Of a stretch of DNA of 45,009 bases, positions 2,607 through 37,886 are shown in pieces. A program made the translations under genes and the position numbers. Every line of letters starts with the position of its first letter. Position 1 is the first letter of the stretch. The stretch spans positions 1 to 45,009 of IMG/VR virus record IMGVR_UViG_3300045960_000031; one strand, given 5' to 3'. The DNA is from a virus. The notes below the pieces were generated by a model, which saw only the letters and a list, made by a program, of their open reading frames with translations, had not been told where the DNA came from and ran no database searches.

Positions 2607-4418
2607 ATGGCTGAAAAAGAGAAACAAGCAGTAGACAAGTGGTTACAAAAGATTTCCCGCGCTAAAGAGGTACGCGAGAAGTGGCGCGAAACCTTTAGGG
2701 TGGCGATGGCATACGAATACTTTGAGGGCAAACAAAGACCTGCAAATGTATCCGCAGACAGTTGGCTTACGATCAATCTAATCTACTCTAATCTCTTGGC
2801 TATGCTTCCGAGTCTGTATGCCGCCGACCCCTATTTTTATATAAAACTGAAACGAAGTTACAAGCCAGATCCTATGAGTGTGGCCCTTTATGAGATGAAG
2901 GGCAAAATGAGGCAATCTTTACTTAATTACTACAAAGAAGAACTAGACCTCAAAACAAAGACCCGACTCTCGATCTTCGATGCGATGTTTCAGTATGGGG
3001 TCTTTAAGATCAGACACCAATCAGAGATTTTAGAGAATAAGACTGCTGGTGATTACATTACCGATGAAGATGGAACTATTCTTTATAATGATGACGGTGA
3101 AGCTCTTCAGGAGCCGGAGACTATTCCAGTAAACGAAGAATACGTTTTAGAAAGAATCCACCCCGACGATTTTTTGGTAGATGAAGATGCCGGACCCCTT
3201 GATGAAGATGTTAGGTGGTTCGCTCAGAGAATCAAAAGACCGCTTGTTGAGGCGAAGGAAGATACTCGTTTCAAAAAGAGTGTCAGGAAGAATCTCAAGG
3301 CTACCGAGGTTAACGACAAGATTGACAAGGAACGGGAACTCAGGAAGAAGGGCTCGGGGAAAGTTTCCGCTACTGAAAAAGAAGATAAGAAAGCTGACAT
3401 CATTGTAGAGTGGGAGATTTACGACCCCAAGGAAAAAGAATGGTTGGTGGTAGCAGAAGGCAACGATGAATTTCTCATCAAACCTGAAGAAGTGCCCAAG
3501 GGTATTGAACATCATCCCTTCTGCACTCTTAGATTTACTTTGCGAGATGATAGTTGGTATCCCGTACCCCCAGTGAGTCAGTGGCTAGACCCCCAGAGAG
3601 ATTACTGCGATGCACGATCAAAGATAAGCACGCAAAGGAAAAAATCGAACCGGAAGTATGTCGTTAATGAAACGGCCTTTAATGATGCACAGACGGAAAT
3701 CGATAAACTGGAGGTTGGTGAAGATGGTACTATCATTCGTGCCCAAATCCCCGCAACCGATGCAGTGGTTTCTCCTATCCGCGAACTTCCGACAAATCAG
3801 ATGGCCATACAGGAATTAGCTCTTTTGAGAGATGAACTTACCCTCATGTCAGTCGGGCCCAATCAGAGCAAATCCGGGAGGGGTGTAGAGAGCGCAACTG
3901 AAGCTGGTATTATCGAGAAAAGATTACAAGTCCAGGAAGGTGACTGGATTTCCCTAGTGATAGATTTTGTCCGTGACATTGCTCGAAAGTTAGACCAGTT
4001 GATTCAGGTGCATTTGACTTCTGAGGAAGCGATCAAGGTAGTAGGTCCAGAAGGAGAATACTGGCAACTTGTCAAACCATCTCATTATGAAGATATTGAA
4101 GGTGAATATGAATATAGCGTAAATGTGGGCGCGACCACACCGAGGCTACCCGAAATTGAAAGACAACAATTTATTGCGTGGTTGACCCTTCTAGCGTCAG
4201 CTCCGCAGTTGGCTACCAGCAAGCGGCTTTTAAAGAAAACAGCCGAGATGCACCACATAGACGACGATCAATTAATTGAAGAACTCTACCAGATGGCCCA
4301 AAAGATAATGAGCGGCCAGATGCCCCTTCCCGGAAGACAGGGTTCGGCGGCTGGCAGTACCACAGTTCCCGGAGGTGGTATAACGGGTGCTGGGGCTGGT
4401 ACGGTTAATATGGCATGA
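2607..4418 (+). CDS. Portal protein, 603 aa
   Basis: This forms the dodecameric vertex ring through which DNA enters and leaves the capsid. It is large (603 residues) and follows terL. The N-terminal region reads WLTINLIYSNLLAMLPSLYAADP, the usual early helix-plus-PxLY segment of portals of podovirus type. A long acidic/basic wing follows, then a central stem-like stretch (VPPVSQWLDPQRDYCDARSK). The C-terminus is Gly/Ala-rich. The start directly follows the upstream stop, so translation is probably coupled. Assignment comes from position, size and these motifs. Confidence 0.9.
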   Translation: MAEKEKQAVDKWLQKISRAKEVREKWRETFRVAMAYEYFEGKQRPANVSADSWLTINLIYSNLLAMLPSLYAADPYFYIKLKRSYKPDPMSVALYEMKGKMRQSLLNYYKEELDLKTKTRLSIFDAMFQYGVFKIRHQSEILENKTAGDYITDEDGTILYNDDGEALQEPETIPVNEEYVLERIHPDDFLVDEDAGPLDEDVRWFAQRIKRPLVEAKEDTRFKKSVRKNLKATEVNDKIDKERELRKKGSGKVSATEKEDKKADIIVEWEIYDPKEKEWLVVAEGNDEFLIKPEEVPKGIEHHPFCTLRFTLRDDSWYPVPPVSQWLDPQRDYCDARSKISTQRKKSNRKYVVNETAFNDAQTEIDKLEVGEDGTIIRAQIPATDAVVSPIRELPTNQMAIQELALLRDELTLMSVGPNQSKSGRGVESATEAGIIEKRLQVQEGDWISLVIDFVRDIARKLDQLIQVHLTSEEAIKVVGPEGEYWQLVKPSHYEDIEGEYEYSVNVGATTPRLPEIERQQFIAWLTLLASAPQLATSKRLLKKTAEMHHIDDDQLIEELYQMAQKIMSGQMPLPGRQGSAAGSTTVPGGGITGAGAGTVNMA

Positions 4419-7049: not shown

Positions 7050-8156
7050 ATGGGAAATCCTGGTGCGACAACTGCACCTTCAAGTTATACCACTTATTAC
7101 GATAGCCTGTTATCAACTACGTTGTTTAATTATCGCCCGACGATGGTGGACAACATCTTTAGGTCGAGCGCGTGGTTGGCAGCTCTGAAGAAAAACGGTG
7201 GGATAGATTACCAGAACGGCGGGGAGAGAATTGCTTGGCCCCTCATGTACGAAACAAATTCTACCGTTAAAAGCTATTCAGGCTATGAAACCTTAGACAC
7301 AACCCCACAAGACGGCATGACGACCTGTTTTTATGAGTGGCGCGAAATCGGCGGAACAATCTCTATTTCCCGCAAAGAGGAAAGACAGAACTCCGGCGAA
7401 TCGGCCATGTTGAACTTGTTAGAGAAGAAAACCATGCAGGCCGAAATGTCCATGAAGCAGGCGATCAATCAGCAGTTGGTACAGGGGACTGTTTCAGCTA
7501 CCACTTTTGTCCCCGGCAACAGCTCGAAAGACCTTAACCCCTTGGGATATATAATCCGCAAGGCTCCTGCTACCGATCCCGTTTCGGGCGGTAATGTGGG
7601 AAACATAGCTGGTGCTACTTACAGTTGGTGGCGGCCACGTGTAGCAGACTTTACAACCGCTTCTACTCCTGCGGGCGGCGTGTTTGGCATGACCGTAGAT
7701 AGTTTGAGGGACTATAAGATCGCTCTCTACAGACTTTACAACTATTGTACGCGCGGTGCTGATGGTTCCGGCCCCAATATTCTTTTGGGGGATCAGGTGT
7801 CGTTCGAGACCTACGAAAACGCACTTGATTACGACAAACGATACTACGATGAAAGCCTCGCCACGATGGGATTCGACGGAATCAAACTGAAGGCCGCAAC
7901 ATTTATTTGGGATGAGCTGGTTCCCGACCTTTACAGCGGTACGACTACGCTGACCTACGGGACCGTGTTCCTTGTGAACACAAAATTTTACAAACTCGTA
8001 ATTGACTCTGAGACGGATTTTATCACGACACCTTTTGTAGAGCCGGAAAACCAGACGGCAAGAACCGCAAAGATACTCTTTATGGGTAATGCGATTGCCA
8101 ACAACCTGCGGAAATTGGGTGCAGCGTGGTATATCCTTCAGACGATAGTGGCGTAA
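7050..8156 (+). CDS. Major capsid protein, 368 aa
   Basis: It follows the scaffold gene behind a TAGGAGGAAG ribosome binding site. Its 368 residues open with a flexible Ser/Thr-rich arm, then YDSLLSTTLFNYRPTMVDNIFRSSAWLAAL, GGERIAWPLMYE and a long acidic helix (KKTMQAEMSMKQAINQQLVQG). These fit the N-arm and spine-helix layout of HK97-fold coat proteins of podovirus-like phages. The codons are more GC-rich than the surrounding small genes, as expected for a highly expressed protein. The role is assigned from order, size and this layout. Confidence 0.85.
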   Translation: MGNPGATTAPSSYTTYYDSLLSTTLFNYRPTMVDNIFRSSAWLAALKKNGGIDYQNGGERIAWPLMYETNSTVKSYSGYETLDTTPQDGMTTCFYEWREIGGTISISRKEERQNSGESAMLNLLEKKTMQAEMSMKQAINQQLVQGTVSATTFVPGNSSKDLNPLGYIIRKAPATDPVSGGNVGNIAGATYSWWRPRVADFTTASTPAGGVFGMTVDSLRDYKIALYRLYNYCTRGADGSGPNILLGDQVSFETYENALDYDKRYYDESLATMGFDGIKLKAATFIWDELVPDLYSGTTTLTYGTVFLVNTKFYKLVIDSETDFITTPFVEPENQTARTAKILFMGNAIANNLRKLGAAWYILQTIVA

Positions 8157-8208: not shown

Positions 8209-8637
8209 ATGTTATTTCAGAGGATCAACAGAACAGACCCCGAAAAGGTCTTTGTAGTGGTTATGAACAGTTATTCTAGCGGCTCCCTGTCCAATGGGCA
8301 GGCGGTACAGTGGGATTATGCGACTGACGCAAACGGTGTCAGCGTCACGAAACCCGCTGGTACTCATGGTTTTGCTATGGCCGGTGTGGTGGCGGAAACA
8401 ATCGCTCACAATGCTTACGGTCTAGTGCAGGTCTATGGGTATCACTCGGCAGGCCGTGTGGATGGGTCCAGTGGATTGGCCGCTGGCAGCGCACTCGGTA
8501 CTTTTAGTGCGTCTTTTGCCCTTATCCACTTCTCAACGGGCAGCAACCAGATATTGAAGTTCCCCTGCGCTTTCTGCATGGAAACCTATTCGACGGGTGC
8601 GACAGCCGCAAAGAAGATTTTTATTAAGGCCCTGTAA
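8209..8637 (+). CDS. Putative head decoration protein, copy 1, 142 aa
   Basis: A strong AAAGGAG site precedes ATG 8209. The small beta-rich protein contains GLVQVYGYHSAGRVDGSSG and LAAGSALGTFSA, reminiscent of capsid-cement or DUF2190-like proteins that sit right after the coat gene. It is roughly three-quarters identical by eye to the next gene (8693-9127). The first residues (MLFQRI) and last residues are nearly the same, and the C-terminus (CAFCMETYSTGA) keeps two cysteines in both copies. A decoration role is inferred from position and similarity. Confidence 0.65.
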   Translation: MLFQRINRTDPEKVFVVVMNSYSSGSLSNGQAVQWDYATDANGVSVTKPAGTHGFAMAGVVAETIAHNAYGLVQVYGYHSAGRVDGSSGLAAGSALGTFSASFALIHFSTGSNQILKFPCAFCMETYSTGATAAKKIFIKAL

Positions 8638-8692: not shown

Positions 8693-9127
8693 ATGTTATT
8701 TCAGCGTATTAGCCAGACTGACCCCGAAAAGGTTTTTGTTATAGTCAAAAACTCTTATGACACGGCGAGTCTTACTAATGGACAGGTTGCCGAGTGGGAC
8801 TATACAACTGATGCCGATGGGGTCAGTGTAACCAAGCCGTCATCTACGGATACTCACGGCTTCGGAATATGCGGAGTTGTAGCAGAAACGATAGCACTTG
8901 ATGCGTATGGTCTAGTGCAGGTTTATGGATATCATGGTGCTGCCTTGGTTGATGGGTCAAGCGGGCTTGCGGCTGGGAGTGCATTGGGCACGTTCAGCGC
9001 AGCTTTCAACTTGATTCATTTTTCGACCGGCAGTAATCAGATTTTAAAGTTCCCCTGCGCTTTTTGTATGGAGACCTATTCTACAGGTGCGGCTGCTGCG
9101 AAGAAGGTTTTTATTAAAGCACTTTAA
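8693..9127 (+). CDS. Putative head decoration protein, copy 2, 144 aa
   Basis: This is a tandem paralogue of the gene at 8209, with its own AAAGGAG site. The two proteins differ at scattered positions and by a two-residue insertion near residue 51 (SSTDTHGFG against AGTHGFA). The last 45 residues are almost identical. The pattern looks like an old duplication with both copies kept, possibly to make a mixed decoration lattice. It has no similarity to known immunoglobulin-type Hoc proteins by eye. Confidence 0.65.
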   Translation: MLFQRISQTDPEKVFVIVKNSYDTASLTNGQVAEWDYTTDADGVSVTKPSSTDTHGFGICGVVAETIALDAYGLVQVYGYHGAALVDGSSGLAAGSALGTFSAAFNLIHFSTGSNQILKFPCAFCMETYSTGAAAAKKVFIKAL

Positions 9128-16535: not shown

Positions 16536-17033
16536 ATGGCACTCAACCCGAAATCATTGATTATTTCTGATGATATTGTTGTTTTGTGGAGAGATTTTGC
16601 GAAAACCCTTGGTGGTTACGATATTCTCAAAAACGCTTACGGCGGTCATTGGCCTAGATTGCCGGTGAAAAATGAACGAGTAATTTCTTGGTATGATGAT
16701 GAAATATTAGTGGGTTGGTCCTCAGTTAGAAGAGATCCGGTAGAATCATATATTTTGGTTTCAATAGGTATATTTCCGAAATATTTTTTAAGAGGTTATT
16801 CAGTCGAGGTTTTTGCCAGAGCAGTAACGGATGGTTTTGAAACTTTTCCCGACGTGAAATGTGTACTTACTTCTATATTGAAAAAAAATGATACGCTTGT
16901 TAAGCATCATTTTGATTTAACAAAAAAATATACTTGGTGGAAATATGCGGGAGAAATCCTTTTACCATATTCCGGCGAACAGATATTATTTGGGACTTCA
17001 AGAATTGAATGGTTTGGTAGGCATATAAAATGA
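16536..17033 (+). CDS. GNAT-like protein, 165 aa
   Basis: It starts four bases after the previous gene and overlaps the next (ATGA). The middle reads ISWYDDEILVGWSSVRRD, then SYILVSIGIFPKYFLRGYSVEVFARAV, the beta4-alpha3 layout of a GNAT acetyltransferase, though a clear R/Q-x-x-G-x-G/A acetyl-CoA loop is not obvious (FLRGYSVE is the closest). It could be a degenerate or divergent member. The tight arrangement with 15371 suggests they work or were acquired together. Confidence 0.45.
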   Translation: MALNPKSLIISDDIVVLWRDFAKTLGGYDILKNAYGGHWPRLPVKNERVISWYDDEILVGWSSVRRDPVESYILVSIGIFPKYFLRGYSVEVFARAVTDGFETFPDVKCVLTSILKKNDTLVKHHFDLTKKYTWWKYAGEILLPYSGEQILFGTSRIEWFGRHIK

Positions 17034-18826
17034 GCCAACTATTTATTTACCCGTCATCCGCAGGAGACGAAACAAACCAAACACCATATCCCACCGTTGC
17101 CAATTATTTAAATATAGATGAAGTAACCCCAGATGACTTTGCGACCTTTAATTATTCCATTAGTGGCTCCTTGCGCGATCTTTATCAAATGCAAAACACG
17201 GGGTTGCCTTCTGATACAATTATTAATTGGATCAGGGTTTACATGCGGATTTTAACCGCCGGTTATGGTACTGCAAAAACAGCCATTAAAAGCGGTGGTG
17301 TTGTTTATGAAGGAAAAACAGAAACAACACCAGGGGTGTGGGAGGAAAAATATACCCATTATACGACCATTGGTGGAAGTGCTATTACTGTTGCTATGCT
17401 CGACAGTATTCAGGCAGGCTGTACTCTTCATGGTCTAAGTAAATCAGAGTTAGTCCATAATACTCGCACTAGAATATTAATAGATTATGGAGAATCGGGA
17501 AGTAGTGCTTATACCCTTTATTTTGGAGAGACCGATTATGACGAACAAAGTAAAGAGATTACTTCTATTGCTTCCGGGTCGTGGGTAGAAAAATCATGGG
17601 ACGTTTCTGATATTGCAGCATCAGATAGAAATGCTGTAAAAAAATTTGGGGTTAAGATCATCAATAGTACTACATCGCCCCAAACAGTATATCTTGATTA
17701 TATCAACGCGCCCTCTACGGGTGATTTACAGAAGATATTCGTATGGGAAAAGATAGATACTACCAGTAATGATTATACCGTACAACTTTACCCTTGGGAA
17801 CCGATATATCTAGAAAGTTATGTTGCCGATACATCGTTAGGCACTGAAGTTTTAACCAACCACAATAGACCCCCCCTTGGTTCGTTTGTTTTTGGGCCTT
17901 CTTTAACCGGGATGTGTTTTATCATTTACAATAATTTTTTGTATTATTGTCTCGAAAAGCAACCCGATTACTGGCCAACCGAATATAACATAGAAGTTTC
18001 TCCTGTCCAATTTCCACTCAAGGCAGGGTGCTTTTATGACGGACAGATTTATGTAGCCTCTACAGAACAAATCTATAACATTTCTGGTACGGGTGCCGAC
18101 AACTTCTCCCCGCCTATCCCGCAATCTGCGCTTACAGGAACAATAAGTCCTTATTGTTTCTTACCAATTCACGGGAAGGGAATATTCCATTTAGGTAATG
18201 ATGGGCTTTATCTCTTTACAGGTAGTGATGACGTGAATGTAACCAATGAGAGATTTCGCCCCATTTTTACTGGAGAAACGGTACTGGATATTCCCGGAAT
18301 AAGCACGACCAACACTGCAAACTCATGGCTGATTTATTTTCAAAGTAAACTCTATTTCGGCTATCCCAAAGACGGCTCGACCTATCCCGATAACATTATC
18401 GTAACCGACCTTTCTACGGGTAAATCGGCGCATTATGACTATGGGCAGACCTTCCGTTGTGTGGGGATAGATTATGAAAATGATAGACTTCTTACAGTTG
18501 ATACGAGTGGCTATGTGTGGGAATTGGAAAATAAGGACACGACAACCGATGATGGAGATGAAATCTCTTTTAAACTACAGACCATGGATTATTCTTCCAC
18601 CCTTCGAAAGTATTTTCCTCGGTGGGCAAGATATGATGTAAACGTAGGAACGGGAGCTACGGCAAGCGGGTTCGTGCTTTTAGACGGTGTTTCTGTTCAG
18701 ACCCACACACTCTCTGGGTCAAGAAATACAAAAAAGAGACTTATTGCTAAAGCTAATGGTGATCGAGTATCTATGAGAATAACGGGTACGGGTCAGGTAG
18801 ATATTTATTCGGTTGAGGTGGAATGA
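17030..18826 (+). CDS. C-terminal part of the gp10-like tail stopper protein, 598 aa
   Basis: The first 150 residues form a separate fibre-type domain (FIYPSSAGDETNQTPYPTV). The second half of a jelly-roll follows (GSWVEKSWDVSDIAASDRNAVKKFGVKI, then TVYLDYINAP), which completes the half left at 15378. The rest (SLGTEVLTNHNRPPLGSFVFGP, LEKQPDYWPTEY, GIFHLGNDGLYLFTG) is the usual C-terminal propeller region of gp10-like stabilisation proteins. Together the two genes give a full stopper. The ATGA overlap couples it to the GNAT gene. Confidence 0.7.
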   Translation: MSQLFIYPSSAGDETNQTPYPTVANYLNIDEVTPDDFATFNYSISGSLRDLYQMQNTGLPSDTIINWIRVYMRILTAGYGTAKTAIKSGGVVYEGKTETTPGVWEEKYTHYTTIGGSAITVAMLDSIQAGCTLHGLSKSELVHNTRTRILIDYGESGSSAYTLYFGETDYDEQSKEITSIASGSWVEKSWDVSDIAASDRNAVKKFGVKIINSTTSPQTVYLDYINAPSTGDLQKIFVWEKIDTTSNDYTVQLYPWEPIYLESYVADTSLGTEVLTNHNRPPLGSFVFGPSLTGMCFIIYNNFLYYCLEKQPDYWPTEYNIEVSPVQFPLKAGCFYDGQIYVASTEQIYNISGTGADNFSPPIPQSALTGTISPYCFLPIHGKGIFHLGNDGLYLFTGSDDVNVTNERFRPIFTGETVLDIPGISTTNTANSWLIYFQSKLYFGYPKDGSTYPDNIIVTDLSTGKSAHYDYGQTFRCVGIDYENDRLLTVDTSGYVWELENKDTTTDDGDEISFKLQTMDYSSTLRKYFPRWARYDVNVGTGATASGFVLLDGVSVQTHTLSGSRNTKKRLIAKANGDRVSMRITGTGQVDIYSVEVE

Positions 18827-26635: not shown

Positions 26636-27073
26636 ATGCGAGACATCCCGCAAAAGGCCATTGAGTTTATCAAAAAATGGGAAGGATGCTATCTCCAGGT
26701 TTACCATGACGTAGCAGGATATCCGACAATTGCTTATGGACACTTGGTCAAAGAAGGTGAGGACTTCTCAGATGGTATCACCCAGGAGCAAGCCGAGGCA
26801 TTACTAAGGGCCGATCTTGCCGAAGCCAATAACGTCATTGACGATCTTATTGAAGTTGGCCTTAACGATAACCAATTCTCCGCGCTACTCAGTTTCACGT
26901 TTAATTTGGGTGCGAACAACCTCAAAAAATCTACTCTCAGATATAAACTTAACAAGGGTGAACCAAAAGAAGAAGTAGCTAATGAGTTCCTTAAATGGGT
27001 CTATGCCGGAGGTCAGGTAGTTAAGGGATTAGTCCGTAGAAGGAACGCTGAAAGGGAATTATTTCTAGCATAG
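26636..27073 (+). CDS. Endolysin, GH24 lysozyme, 145 aa
   Basis: This T4/P22-type lysozyme hydrolyses the peptidoglycan glycan strand. The catalytic set is E16, D25 and T31, with the same 9- and 6-residue spacing as T4 E11/D20/T26. The core has WEGCYLQVYHDVAGYPTIAYGH and LLSFTFNLG, and the C-terminus RRRNAERELF. There is no signal peptide, so it is cytoplasmic and needs a holin. AAGGAGAA precedes ATG 26636. The length is normal. Confidence 0.95.
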   Translation: MRDIPQKAIEFIKKWEGCYLQVYHDVAGYPTIAYGHLVKEGEDFSDGITQEQAEALLRADLAEANNVIDDLIEVGLNDNQFSALLSFTFNLGANNLKKSTLRYKLNKGEPKEEVANEFLKWVYAGGQVVKGLVRRRNAERELFLA

Positions 27074-28073: not shown

Positions 28074-28349
28074 ATGAAATCAATTTTGCTTATTCTCGTA
28101 ACCCTTTTTATCCTCTCAGCTTGTGCCACTCATTATATCCCTAGCACTTGTCCAACGGTAGGTAATCCTCCCGTAATGAGTGAGGTAAAATGGGTAAGGA
28201 TATGTATTGTAGGGGATAAACCTGATAATGTAGTCTGCTTTCGCGCTCCCGCTAGTGAGGCCGACATTAACAAATTAAGGGCAAATTTCAAAATGAAGGA
28301 TATTTACATTACGGATTGCTTTGATAAAATCGGTGAACCTGCTCAATAG
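28074..28349 (+). CDS. Lipoprotein, possible outer spanin, 91 aa
   Basis: A TAAGGAG site precedes ATG 28074. The signal is SILLILVTLFILSAC, with a clear lipobox LSAC and lipidation at about Cys17. The mature part (THYIPSTCPTVGNPPVMSEVK) is short and carries several further Cys. It is located just after the i-spanin-like gene, so it is the best outer-spanin candidate. Outer and inner spanins fuse the two membranes at lysis. Confidence 0.65.
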   Translation: MKSILLILVTLFILSACATHYIPSTCPTVGNPPVMSEVKWVRICIVGDKPDNVVCFRAPASEADINKLRANFKMKDIYITDCFDKIGEPAQ

Positions 28350-29813: not shown

Positions 29814-29948
29814 ATGAAGATCATAAAACTACCTAGAAGATTACGTTGCTTTAAGTGTGGGTATCGGTGGATTCCAAGAAAACGGGAAGTTAGAATTTGC
29901 CCAAAATGCAAAAGTGCTACCTTTGACAGACCAAGGGTGAGGGCATGA
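29814..29948 (+). CDS. Small zinc ribbon protein, 44 aa
   Basis: Basic protein with CFKCGYRW and CPKC as the zinc ribbon, and a basic Arg-rich rest (IPRKREVRIC). No ribosome binding site is visible, and the predicted transcription start is at the ATG, suggesting leaderless translation. The ATGA overlap couples it to the HTH-HNH gene. It resembles small zinc ribbons that open early operons and may bind nucleic acid. Confidence 0.65.
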   Translation: MKIIKLPRRLRCFKCGYRWIPRKREVRICPKCKSATFDRPRVRA

Positions 29949-30400
29949 ACAAAGACTGGTTACGCAAGAAATACATTGACGAACGACTCTCTTGCGATAA
30001 AATTGGCATGTTAATCAATATGTCTCGTCAAAGTGTTTGGAAGGCCCTTAAACGATATGATATTCCCACTAGAAAGAAAACCGATGCTATTATCCGCTTG
30101 CCACAAAAACAGCGAGAACCTCTACAATGTCGAATATCACAAGGTTATTTTTGGATTTATAATCCTAGACATCCTAAGGCCAATGGACTTTATGTAAAGA
30201 GGGCAATTTTGGTACTTGAAGAAAAACTAGGGCGACCATTAGCAAAAGAAGAAATGTCTCACCATAAAGATGAAGATAGGATGAATGATAATCCTGATAA
30301 TCTTGAAGTCACTACAAGGTCAGAACACATGAAGATACACAGACCCATATCTTATAGATGGGAAAGTAGGCGATTCTCTCTATCTACAAGAGAGAAATAG
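29945..30400 (+). CDS. HNH endonuclease with N-terminal HTH, 151 aa
   Basis: The N-terminus (DERLSCDKIGMLINMSRQSVWKALKRYDIPTR) is a helix-turn-helix DNA-binding unit. The C-terminal half has SHHKDEDRMNDNPDNLEVTTRSEHMKIH, the HNH core with paired His, an Asn and a final His, as in free-standing homing endonucleases of HNH_3 type. Such genes are often mobile within phages. The ATGA overlap couples it to the zinc ribbon. It lies directly before the prepilin-like gene. Confidence 0.85.
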   Translation: MNKDWLRKKYIDERLSCDKIGMLINMSRQSVWKALKRYDIPTRKKTDAIIRLPQKQREPLQCRISQGYFWIYNPRHPKANGLYVKRAILVLEEKLGRPLAKEEMSHHKDEDRMNDNPDNLEVTTRSEHMKIHRPISYRWESRRFSLSTREK

Positions 30401-30408
30401 GAGGTACT

Positions 30409-30537
30409 ATGTCAAACAAGGGTGTCACCCTCATAGAACTTTTAATCTGTTTAGCTGTTTTAGCAATCCTGGCCTCAATAGCAATCCCGTATGGGTTACA
30501 TGCGATAGAGCATGTGCGAAGGGTTTTTAATTTCTAA
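30409..30537 (+). CDS. Type IV prepilin-like peptide, 42 aa
   Basis: AGGAGG (30399-30404) precedes ATG 30409. The sequence starts MSNKG followed by VTLIELLICLAVLAILASIA, a nearly exact class III prepilin signal. It has a basic leader, cleavage after G5, E at mature position +5, and one hydrophobic helix with Pro at about residue 27. The mature protein lacks a globular pilin domain and ends HAIEHVRRVFNF. It is too short for a pilin. It may mimic or poison host pilus assembly. Confidence 0.75.
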   Translation: MSNKGVTLIELLICLAVLAILASIAIPYGLHAIEHVRRVFNF

Positions 30538-30549
30538 AAGGAGGACACC

Positions 30550-30951
30550 ATGAGTGAGAAGTACATTATCTACACGATGGGGAATGAGAAGATAGGAAGA
30601 GAAATAGTAGAGGTCTTGTTGGGCAAGGGTTATCGTTGGCCTGGTTACGATCAAAACTTTCCCAGAACGATCTTGGGTGCTATTACCATCAATACAATAG
30701 CTAATGGTTCAATTGCCTATTTTAGAAAGGGGGAAGAAGAATGCGGTTCTTTATATAAGGAACTTACCTTCCGTGAACTCTGTGAGCTTCCACCTGTGCA
30801 TGATGAATATGAAGAGGCCGCAAAAGAAATAACAGATTTTCTTATCAATAAACTTTCTATTTTTGATAATAATGAATTTATTGATTTTGCTATTAAAAAA
30901 ATAGATTGGTGCAAGATATGGGAAAAGATGAAACCTAAACTCGGATTGTGA
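30550..30951 (+). CDS. Hypothetical protein, 133 aa
   Basis: AAAGGAGGACACC is upstream of ATG 30550. The protein is acidic to neutral, mostly helical in its second half (EYEEAAKEITDFLINKLSIFDNNEFIDFAIKKIDWCKIWEKM). The first half is alpha/beta with YIIYTMGNEKIGREIVEVLLGKGYRWPG. Not recognised. It could be a replication or host-takeover factor in the early block. Confidence 0.55.
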   Translation: MSEKYIIYTMGNEKIGREIVEVLLGKGYRWPGYDQNFPRTILGAITINTIANGSIAYFRKGEEECGSLYKELTFRELCELPPVHDEYEEAAKEITDFLINKLSIFDNNEFIDFAIKKIDWCKIWEKMKPKLGL

Positions 30952-30959
30952 GGACTAAC

Positions 30960-31148
30960 ATGACTGACAAAAAGTATATTGAGTACCGCGATCCCCATTG
31001 TCCTGTTTTTACTGATAATGACTGTTCTCTAAATAGTGAACGTGATGATTCTAGTGAACATGAGGATTCAATGACCGAGGAAGAAAAGCATGGCCCCGAT
31101 CCGTATCTTGTTAATAAACCACTGAGGCCAAGGAGGTTAGCGGGATGA
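30960..31148 (+). CDS. Hypothetical acidic protein, 62 aa
   Basis: I chose ATG 30960, with TGAGGA at 30949-30954, over GTG 30948 that overlaps the previous stop. It is a very acidic Asp/Glu/Ser-rich protein (DNDCSLNSERDDSSEHEDSMTEEEKHGPD) with a basic end (RPRRLAG). This composition is common in small phage proteins that mimic DNA. That is a suggestion only. It overlaps the next gene through ATGA. Confidence 0.5.
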   Translation: MTDKKYIEYRDPHCPVFTDNDCSLNSERDDSSEHEDSMTEEEKHGPDPYLVNKPLRPRRLAG

Positions 31149-31231
31149 GCAAACTTTGGTGGTTAGCTCCCTGGATAATGGCTGGTTTGGTTATACTTAT
31201 ATGCTGGATGCTTGGTGTAACAATCTGGTAG
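31145..31231 (+). CDS. Single-pass membrane micropeptide, 28 aa
   Basis: ATGA overlap with the previous stop. The 28 residues form one membrane helix with Trp-rich ends (LWWLAPWIMAGLVILICWML). Coupling and the clear helix support it. It is below the size of most annotated genes. It is one of several tiny membrane proteins in this genome. Confidence 0.5.
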   Translation: MSKLWWLAPWIMAGLVILICWMLGVTIW

Positions 31232-31246
31232 AAGGAGGGGTAGCCA

Positions 31247-31645: not shown

Positions 31646-31813
31646 ATGCTACGAAATAAAAGTATTCTAAATAAATTAGCTGTAGGATATTGCAAGAGTG
31701 AACACATTCCCTTTGTTCCTAAAAAAGATCATAAGGCGGTAATGTTTTTTAAAGATGATGAACATTTTTGGTGTCACATGACGAATGACGAGTTTAATGG
31801 GATATTTAAATGA
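31646..31813 (+). CDS. Hypothetical protein, 55 aa
   Basis: I chose ATG 31646, with AAGGA about six bases ahead. A longer version from TTG 31550 would add 32 residues. The short form (MLRNKSILNKLAVGYCKSEH) is basic, ending in an acidic aromatic part (VMFFKDDEHFWCHMTNDEF). The ATGA overlap couples it to the radical SAM gene. No family is recognised, but a substrate or partner role for the radical SAM enzyme is conceivable. Confidence 0.5.
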   Translation: MLRNKSILNKLAVGYCKSEHIPFVPKKDHKAVMFFKDDEHFWCHMTNDEFNGIFK

Positions 31814-32766
31814 AGTTAGAAGATATTGGATTCTACACATTAGCAGATAAACGAGCAAGAAACTGTTCTGCAACATCTCGTTTGTGGAGATGTGAACTTT
31901 TACTTACTTCTAGGTGTAATTTTCAATGTCCTTATTGCCGAAAAATGGATGGGAAAGACATAACTATAAAAGAAGCAATCCACATTCTTGATTTATGGGC
32001 AGATGATGGTTTAAAAAATGTTCGTTTTAGTGGTGGAGAACCTACGCTTTGGGGGAATTTATTGTCATTAGTGCAATATACCAAGGCATGTGGAATAGAA
32101 CGAATAGCCCTTTCAACGAATGGATCTGCCCCCCCTTTTTTATATTATCAATTAGTAAATGCTGGTGTAAATGATTTTTCGTTTTCACTTGATGCTTGTT
32201 GTTCATCAACTGCTAATTTAATGAGTGGCGGAATGGCAGATTTTAATCTCATTACTCATAATATCAAGGAAATATCAAAACTTACTTACGCAACAATCGG
32301 CATCGTAGTTACAAATCAAAACATAAAAGAAGTAGAAAAAATTATTAGTATGGCAAGCGAGTGGGGTATTGCAGACATAAGAATTATAAGTGCTGCACAA
32401 AACAATTCTATTCCTATCCATCTAAACATCAAGGCAAATGGCTTCCCCATCTTGTCTTATCGTTTAAATAATATGAAACAAGGTAAGCCTATGCGTGGAT
32501 TAACCGTGAACGATAACAACCGATGTCCACTCGTCTTAGATGATATGGCAGTATGGGATGGCAACCATTACCCTTGCATTATTTATCTTCGAGAAAAGGG
32601 ATTACCGATAGGTAAAATTGGGCCAAATATGCGGCGAGATCGTTCTGCGTGGGCTATAAACCATGATACTTACCAGGATAATATCTGCCGTAATAATTGC
32701 CTTGATGTTTGTGTTGCCTATAACAATAAAGTAAAGGAGACTACTTATGACCACAAACCACGCTGA
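31810..32766 (+). CDS. Radical SAM enzyme, SPASM-like C-terminus, 318 aa
   Basis: CX3CX2C at residues 36, 40 and 43 (CNFQCPYC), GGEP in VRFSGGEPTLWG (the SAM-binding motif), and then NGSAPP and DFSFSLDACCSSTANL. The C-terminus carries CPLVLDDMAVWDGNHYPCIIY and CRNNCLDVC, an auxiliary-cluster pattern. It is similar in layout to MoaA/SPASM peptide-modifying enzymes. The start overlaps the upstream gene. It is a different protein from the radical SAM enzyme at 4703 and lies in the early region. Confidence 0.85.
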   Translation: MKLEDIGFYTLADKRARNCSATSRLWRCELLLTSRCNFQCPYCRKMDGKDITIKEAIHILDLWADDGLKNVRFSGGEPTLWGNLLSLVQYTKACGIERIALSTNGSAPPFLYYQLVNAGVNDFSFSLDACCSSTANLMSGGMADFNLITHNIKEISKLTYATIGIVVTNQNIKEVEKIISMASEWGIADIRIISAAQNNSIPIHLNIKANGFPILSYRLNNMKQGKPMRGLTVNDNNRCPLVLDDMAVWDGNHYPCIIYLREKGLPIGKIGPNMRRDRSAWAINHDTYQDNICRNNCLDVCVAYNNKVKETTYDHKPR

Positions 32767-37361: not shown

Positions 37362-37886
37362 ATGATAAAGACCATAACGAAACAATGGTTACGGAAACAG
37401 GGTGCTTGCGGCGAAGCGGTGCAGGCTTGGAATGGCGAGAAGGATCATGGCACGATTATTACCCTCAATCGCCTTATCAAGCACAAGCAATACGATTGGG
37501 CTAATTGGCTGATAGTGCGGGTGATGGAACGAAAGCGATATCTCCGCTACGCCATCTATGCGGCAAAGCAGGTTATTGCTATTTACGAGAAGCGATATCC
37601 TGGTGATGATCAGCCTCGGTTGGCAATTAGGGCGGCAGAGAAATGTTTAATGGCGGATACGAAAAAGAATAGGGCCGCCGCCTACGCCGCCGCCAACGCC
37701 GCCTACGCCGCCGCCAACGCCGCCGCCTACGCCGCCGCCTACGCCGCCGCCAACGCCGCCTACGCCGCCGCCAACGCCGCCTACGCCGCCGCCTACGCCG
37801 CCGCCAACGCCGCCTACGCCCCCAAACAAAAAATGCAATTAAAAATCCTGCGGTATGGAATGAGGTTACTCAAGGAGGCCCCATGA
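37362..37886 (+). CDS. Imm-5-like protein with Ala-rich repeat, 174 aa
   Basis: AAAGGAGTAGGAG precedes ATG 37362. Residues 1-95 (KQGACGEAVQAWNGEKDHGTI, LRYAIYAAKQVIAIYEKRYPGDDQPRLAIRAAEKCL) match the Imm-5-like domain pattern, named after putative immunity proteins. Then about 50 residues of AAY/AAN repeats follow, encoded by GCC-rich DNA. The C-terminus is short and basic. Function is unknown. The helix repeat could form a long ridged rod. Confidence 0.6.
   Translation: MIKTITKQWLRKQGACGEAVQAWNGEKDHGTIITLNRLIKHKQYDWANWLIVRVMERKRYLRYAIYAAKQVIAIYEKRYPGDDQPRLAIRAAEKCLMADTKKNRAAAYAAANAAYAAANAAAYAAAYAAANAAYAAANAAYAAAYAAANAAYAPKQKMQLKILRYGMRLLKEAP
37673..37820 (+). repeat. GCC-rich tandem repeat within the Imm-5-like gene
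   Basis: About 148 bases are built from GCC codons with single TAC or AAC codons every third or fourth position, in units of 9 and 12 bases (GCCGCCTAC, GCCGCCGCCAAC). The codon use is sharply unlike its surroundings. It encodes Ala-Ala-Tyr/Asn repeats and would be prone to slippage, so lengths may differ among relatives. Confidence 0.9.

Follow-up and report, generated by a model that had tools for sequence, protein, structure and literature searches.

A tailed phage encodes, in a gene of 42 codons, a small protein that its sequence supports as a class III prepilin truncated before the head domain. It keeps the prepilin signal and the first helical segment of a type IV pilin (alpha1-N), and stops after a short tail. 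The window, meaning the whole stretch of DNA that was analysed, comprises all 45,009 bases of one IMG/VR record and is a tailed-phage contig. The gene for this mini-prepilin and its two neighbours are arranged as follows:

29945..30400, + strand: upstream neighbour, HNH endonuclease of 151 aa (PF13392, 1e-6; phrog_7545, 2.1e-20)
30399..30404, + strand: AGGAGG ribosome-binding site of the mini-prepilin, read from the sequence
30409..30537, + strand: mini-prepilin gene, 42 aa (mature form 37 aa if cut after G5)
30409..30423, + strand: prepilin leader MSNKG, with a prepilin-peptidase cut predicted after G5 from the PF07963/TIGR02532 match
30424..30489, + strand: alpha1-N, mature residues 1-22 (VTLIELLICLAVLAILASIAIP) with E5 and P22, from the translation; aligns with Geobacter PilA-N 9egp
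30490..30534, + strand: short tail YGLHAIEHVRRVFNF in the place of alpha1-C and head domain, from the translation
30550..30951, + strand: downstream neighbour of 133 aa with its own AGGAGG; it has no N-terminal hydrophobic stretch and is not a pilin head

The full-length product, MSNKGVTLIELLICLAVLAILASIAIPYGLHAIEHVRRVFNF, is divided by the predicted cut into MSNKG^VTLIELLICLAVLAILASIAIPYGLHAIEHVRRVFNF. Numbered from that cut, the mature peptide ends at residue 37 and carries both landmarks of type IV pilin alpha1-N, E5 and P22. The hydrophobic run of alpha1-N is uninterrupted. Only the 15-residue tail follows P22 before the stop codon, and neither alpha1-C nor a C-terminal head domain is present in the translation. 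The AGGAGG site is set 4 nt ahead of the ATG, the HNH gene ends 8 nt upstream, and 12 nt separate the stop codon from the next gene, an operon-like layout. No pilin continuation is found in the downstream DNA, and the ORF sits snugly between the genes on either side, so the short product does not come from a pilin gene that was recently frameshifted. This agrees with a sequence-only reading of the same DNA, which had described G at -1 and E at mature +5 as marks of a class III prepilin signal, and had noted the missing pilin head and the AGGAGG site; a canonical Pro22 can be added to these. The "basic leader" of that reading is basic but weakly so, having one Lys only, and its "early region" is uncertain, as the gene comes after the lysis cassette and before the genes for replication.

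The prepilin signal is far beyond what chance would give. The protein scores 34 bits against Pfam PF07963 (N_methyl; cut-off 21.2) and 35.1 bits against TIGR02532 (GFxxxE; cut-off 16.3). On a position-specific profile built from other prepilins, with the mini-prepilin itself left out, it reaches 52.8 bits. The runner-up among 1,017 six-frame stretches of the window scores 7.5, and related phages, over 840 kb, reach 7.7 at most. When the hydrophobic segment was shuffled 50,000 times, no shuffle rose above 27.6. A transmembrane helix of the ordinary kind therefore does not account for the signal, and the ORF is a genuine gene. Comparison with solved structures shows that the match goes beyond the cleavage motif and spans the whole of alpha1-N, including P22. 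The nearest solved sequence match is Geobacter PilA-N (geopilin domain 1; PDB 9egp and 7tgg; E 7e-5), and the closest sequence matches overall are ordinary full-length pilins. With the class III prepilin N-terminus (PF07963; TIGR02532) the mini-prepilin shares K-G(-1), E at +5, P22 and an unbroken hydrophobic helix; it differs in having V rather than F at +1 and in ending 15 residues past P22.

The other landmarks of the window are those of a tailed phage:

818-2260: large terminase
2607-4418: portal
7050-8156: major head protein
17030-18826: internal virion protein
25503 and 28074 (28074-28349): lipobox-type ORFs near the lysozyme gene, spanin-like
26636-27073: phage lysozyme
27561: membrane-anchored ORF near the lysozyme gene, spanin-like
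beyond 34,000: genes for a DnaB-like helicase, an exonuclease and a DNA methyltransferase

The two lipobox ORFs and the membrane-anchored ORF look like spanin components, and a Gram-negative host is suggested by the lysozyme and lipoprotein genes together. The window's capsid gene has close relatives on two small contigs (L249 and L250) that were binned as Candidatus Gottesmanbacteria. Contigs of small size easily end up in a wrong bin, and the lysozyme and lipoprotein genes point to a Gram-negative cell, so Gottesmanbacteria were set aside as the host; L249 and L250 are probably mis-binned phage contigs, though they may hold a hint about the host. No integrase occurs among the ORFs scanned, and the window has no tRNA. 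It encodes no prepilin peptidase either, so that processing of the mini-prepilin would depend on the host. Several other ORFs deserve mention. A very small, Trp-rich membrane ORF of 28 aa (MSKLWWLAPWIMAGLVILICWMLGVTIW; 31146-31232) lies 0.6 kb downstream of the mini-prepilin. A radical SAM protein (31810-32766; PF04055, 2e-17) was placed in the early region; two viral relatives of it were found. An ORF resembling Imm5-like immunity proteins (37362-37886; PF21805, 2.4e-6) is found in the replication region. Just past the major head protein gene, two adjacent ORFs (8209-8637 and 8693-9127) both match one locus in related phages and look like a tandem duplication.

Whole records of the phages related to the window by terminase (L002-L043) or by capsid (34 viral loci) were searched with PF07963. 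No match over the cut-off was found in 39 terminase relatives or in 29 viral capsid relatives; many of these records are fragments, and about a dozen are near full length (38-50 kb, e.g., G003, G049, G059, and G065). The same search recovers the window's own copy. When the closest long relative (G003) is aligned with the window, the virion genes match but most of the region around the mini-prepilin does not. With no copy among the relatives searched, the gene is a lineage-specific accessory of this phage. In 50,697 phage records, tblastn with the 42-aa protein found no match, but with low-complexity filtering such a null says nothing about so hydrophobic a peptide; queries with two further short prepilins of viruses likewise found none. 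The sequence-only reading had looked to homologues for conservation of G(-1) and E(+5). As the gene is absent altogether from related phages, there are no orthologues to display it; the unrelated viral contigs described below keep both residues, but the search pattern required both.

Short prepilins recur in unrelated viruses. A DNA pattern for KGxxTLIELL finds 80 loci in viral contigs, 74 of which are prepilin-like once translated. They reduce to 45 non-redundant loci, with 23 complete ORFs of 110 aa or less, nine of these not exceeding 60 aa. The short ORFs range from 29 to 105 aa; examples are ORFs of 29-32 aa (L112, L090, and L046) and of 42-45 aa (L070, L059, and L077). As a rough bacterial baseline, obtained by a different search in 25 matching genomes of one phylum, about 150 PF07963 frames include only two of less than 60 aa. 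A DNA pattern for the helix as it stands, LA(V/I)LAILASIAIP, occurs in no viral contig, and the TLIELLIC pattern gave six proteins, all longer. In PHROGs, families 13280, 10597, 11263, and 27437 (of unknown function) and 3433 (pilin) have the same kind of N-terminal 25-30 residues. Their proteins are longer (59-140 aa) and have unrelated tails, so the mini-prepilin matches their N-terminal part only; members of 59-72 aa do occur among the families of unknown function. Phage-borne prepilin-like proteins are thus already in PHROGs, as a known but uncharacterised kind, and headless prepilins are a recurrent phage gene type.

What might such a protein do? Prepilin peptidase and the assembly platform recognise G-1, E5, and alpha1-N of type IV pilins. 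Because the mini-prepilin has these features and lacks a filament-exposed head, we favour, tentatively, the reading that it interferes with the assembly of a host type IV filament. We infer its processing, target, effect, and benefit alike. The protein would be inserted into the inner membrane with its N-terminus inside, and the host prepilin peptidase would cut it and possibly N-methylate it. Its alpha1-N retains E5 and P22, which serve in assembly; it would then either be a competitor of the host's pilins or pseudopilins at the PilC-type platform or poison the growing filament. The outcome would be a shutdown of the type IV filament of the infected cell (pilus or type II secretion), and the phage might benefit, for example, by excluding pilus-dependent phages. 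A signal far beyond chance with alpha1-N whole, a compact gene with a strong ribosome-binding site, tight spacing and no pilin continuation, and the recurrence of short prepilin-like proteins in unrelated viral contigs and PHROGs are all consistent with interference. Against it, that the host has a type IV filament is an assumption, related phages have no orthologue, the single basic residue of the leader and the basic tail make the topology less certain, and many other short viral prepilins adjoin SPFH genes, which points to a role beyond plain pilus poisoning for at least part of the class.

There is a precedent for the effect proposed here. PfsE, the smallest protein of Pseudomonas phage Pf4, resides in the inner membrane, binds PilC, and blocks pili and superinfection; it depends on a conserved aromatic cluster, YAWGW (PMC8764522). 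Both PfsE and the mini-prepilin are very small phage proteins, and the pilus shutdown via PilC that the former brings about is what we propose for the latter. The mini-prepilin has neither the YAWGW motif nor any Trp, and instead carries a prepilin signal; no sequence kinship between the two is apparent, and we claim none. Other phage inhibitors of type IV pili, Tip of D3112 and Aqs1 of DMS3, bind the ATPase PilB and, unlike the mini-prepilin, are not pilin-like (PMC8764522). The "different strategy" of the sequence-only reading is therefore weakened: PfsE is likewise very small, sits in the inner membrane, and blocks pili by binding PilC (PMC8764522).

It is also possible, if doubtful, that the product is a small membrane protein in which the prepilin signal is an anchor or targeting device for some envelope function other than a pilus block. 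It might, for instance, be a membrane scaffold's partner or substrate, act on membrane proteases of the host, or modulate lysis. The main argument comes from other contigs. A Band_7/SPFH gene, confirmed by Pfam, lies within 2 kb of 11 of the 23 non-redundant short viral prepilins and in every case shares their strand; among 17 long pilins there is no such case (Fisher p = 8e-4). This pairing with SPFH/Band_7 (prohibitin/HflK-like) genes was seen in L090, L070, L059, L092, L076, L122, L098, L065, L091, L100, L068, and L051. In two Clostridial-looking contigs (L112:7786-8253 and L046:6331-6820), micro-prepilins of 29 and 32 aa directly precede one and the same small membrane protein of 125-129 aa, which contains FFPGG(K/R)ALINSYDNMMKKVDDKT...; its L112 version matches no PHROG. 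In three further contigs (L045:5811-6221, L069:767-1174, and L079:997-1404), prepilins of 64-75 aa adjoin a truncated SPFH-like membrane/coiled-coil protein; the L045 copy matches phrog_11227, annotated as a protease. In the window, the spanin-like lipoprotein ORF 28074-28349 is some 2 kb upstream of the mini-prepilin, which also suits an envelope role. However, the window has no PF01145 (Band_7) match anywhere at E 0.1, so the mini-prepilin is not a member of the SPFH pairing, and its neighbours are an HNH nuclease and a soluble-looking protein of 133 aa. The Band_7 gene is equally absent from all 31 related records searched. Nor is the link universal, since eight GenBank phages with SPFH genes show no prepilin motif nearby. 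Finally, a complete alpha1-N with E5 and P22 exceeds the needs of an anchor.

An inert relic is unlikely. In that case the phage would have acquired the 5′ part of a pilin gene from its host, perhaps with the adjacent HNH element, and the piece, cut short, would now be drifting. Its single occurrence in the lineage, the mobile HNH endonuclease next to it, and a length below that of all known pilins would fit such an origin. Yet the frame is neat, with a strong ribosome-binding site and tight spacing on both sides, no leftover pilin sequence follows, every key residue of the signal is intact, and equally short versions recur in unrelated phages. We consider a split pilin very improbable. Geobacter PilA-N is a naturally short, headless pilin, and pilins split over adjacent genes are described in Desulfuromonadales (PMC5174107), so that the solved-structure matches reported above could suggest a short PilA-N with a separately encoded head. 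Mature PilA-N has about 61 residues and a secreted head protein encoded alongside it, whereas the mini-prepilin has 37 and no such partner: the downstream protein of 133 aa has no visible secretion signal and no family match (Pfam, PHROGs, and TIGR), and no relatives of it were found. With no secreted partner encoded next door, the split-pilin reading was rejected. A chance ORF without a product is scarcely credible, for although it has just 42 codons and no homologous gene in related phages, its profile score stands far above those of the shuffles and of related phage DNA, and it has its own ribosome-binding site and spacing.

Interference with filament assembly may not be confined to this phage. 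Phages may repeatedly have reduced host prepilins to headless decoys of signal plus helix, which would be processed by the host and would poison type IV filament assembly, and the mini-prepilin would be a stripped-down example; we put this forward as a conjecture, open to considerable doubt. In the open-licence literature we found no description of a decoy-pilin strategy, of headless phage prepilins, or of the prepilin-SPFH pairing. Type IV pili, type II secretion, and DNA uptake machines share the prepilin peptidase. Should the mini-prepilin prove to be a substrate of prepilin peptidase and an inhibitor of pili, it would amount to a phage weapon made from the host's own filament subunit, and would offer a compact, genetically encoded inhibitor for any of these systems. 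More broadly, the short prepilins that recur in viruses, often near SPFH genes, suggest an unstudied class of phage membrane modules.
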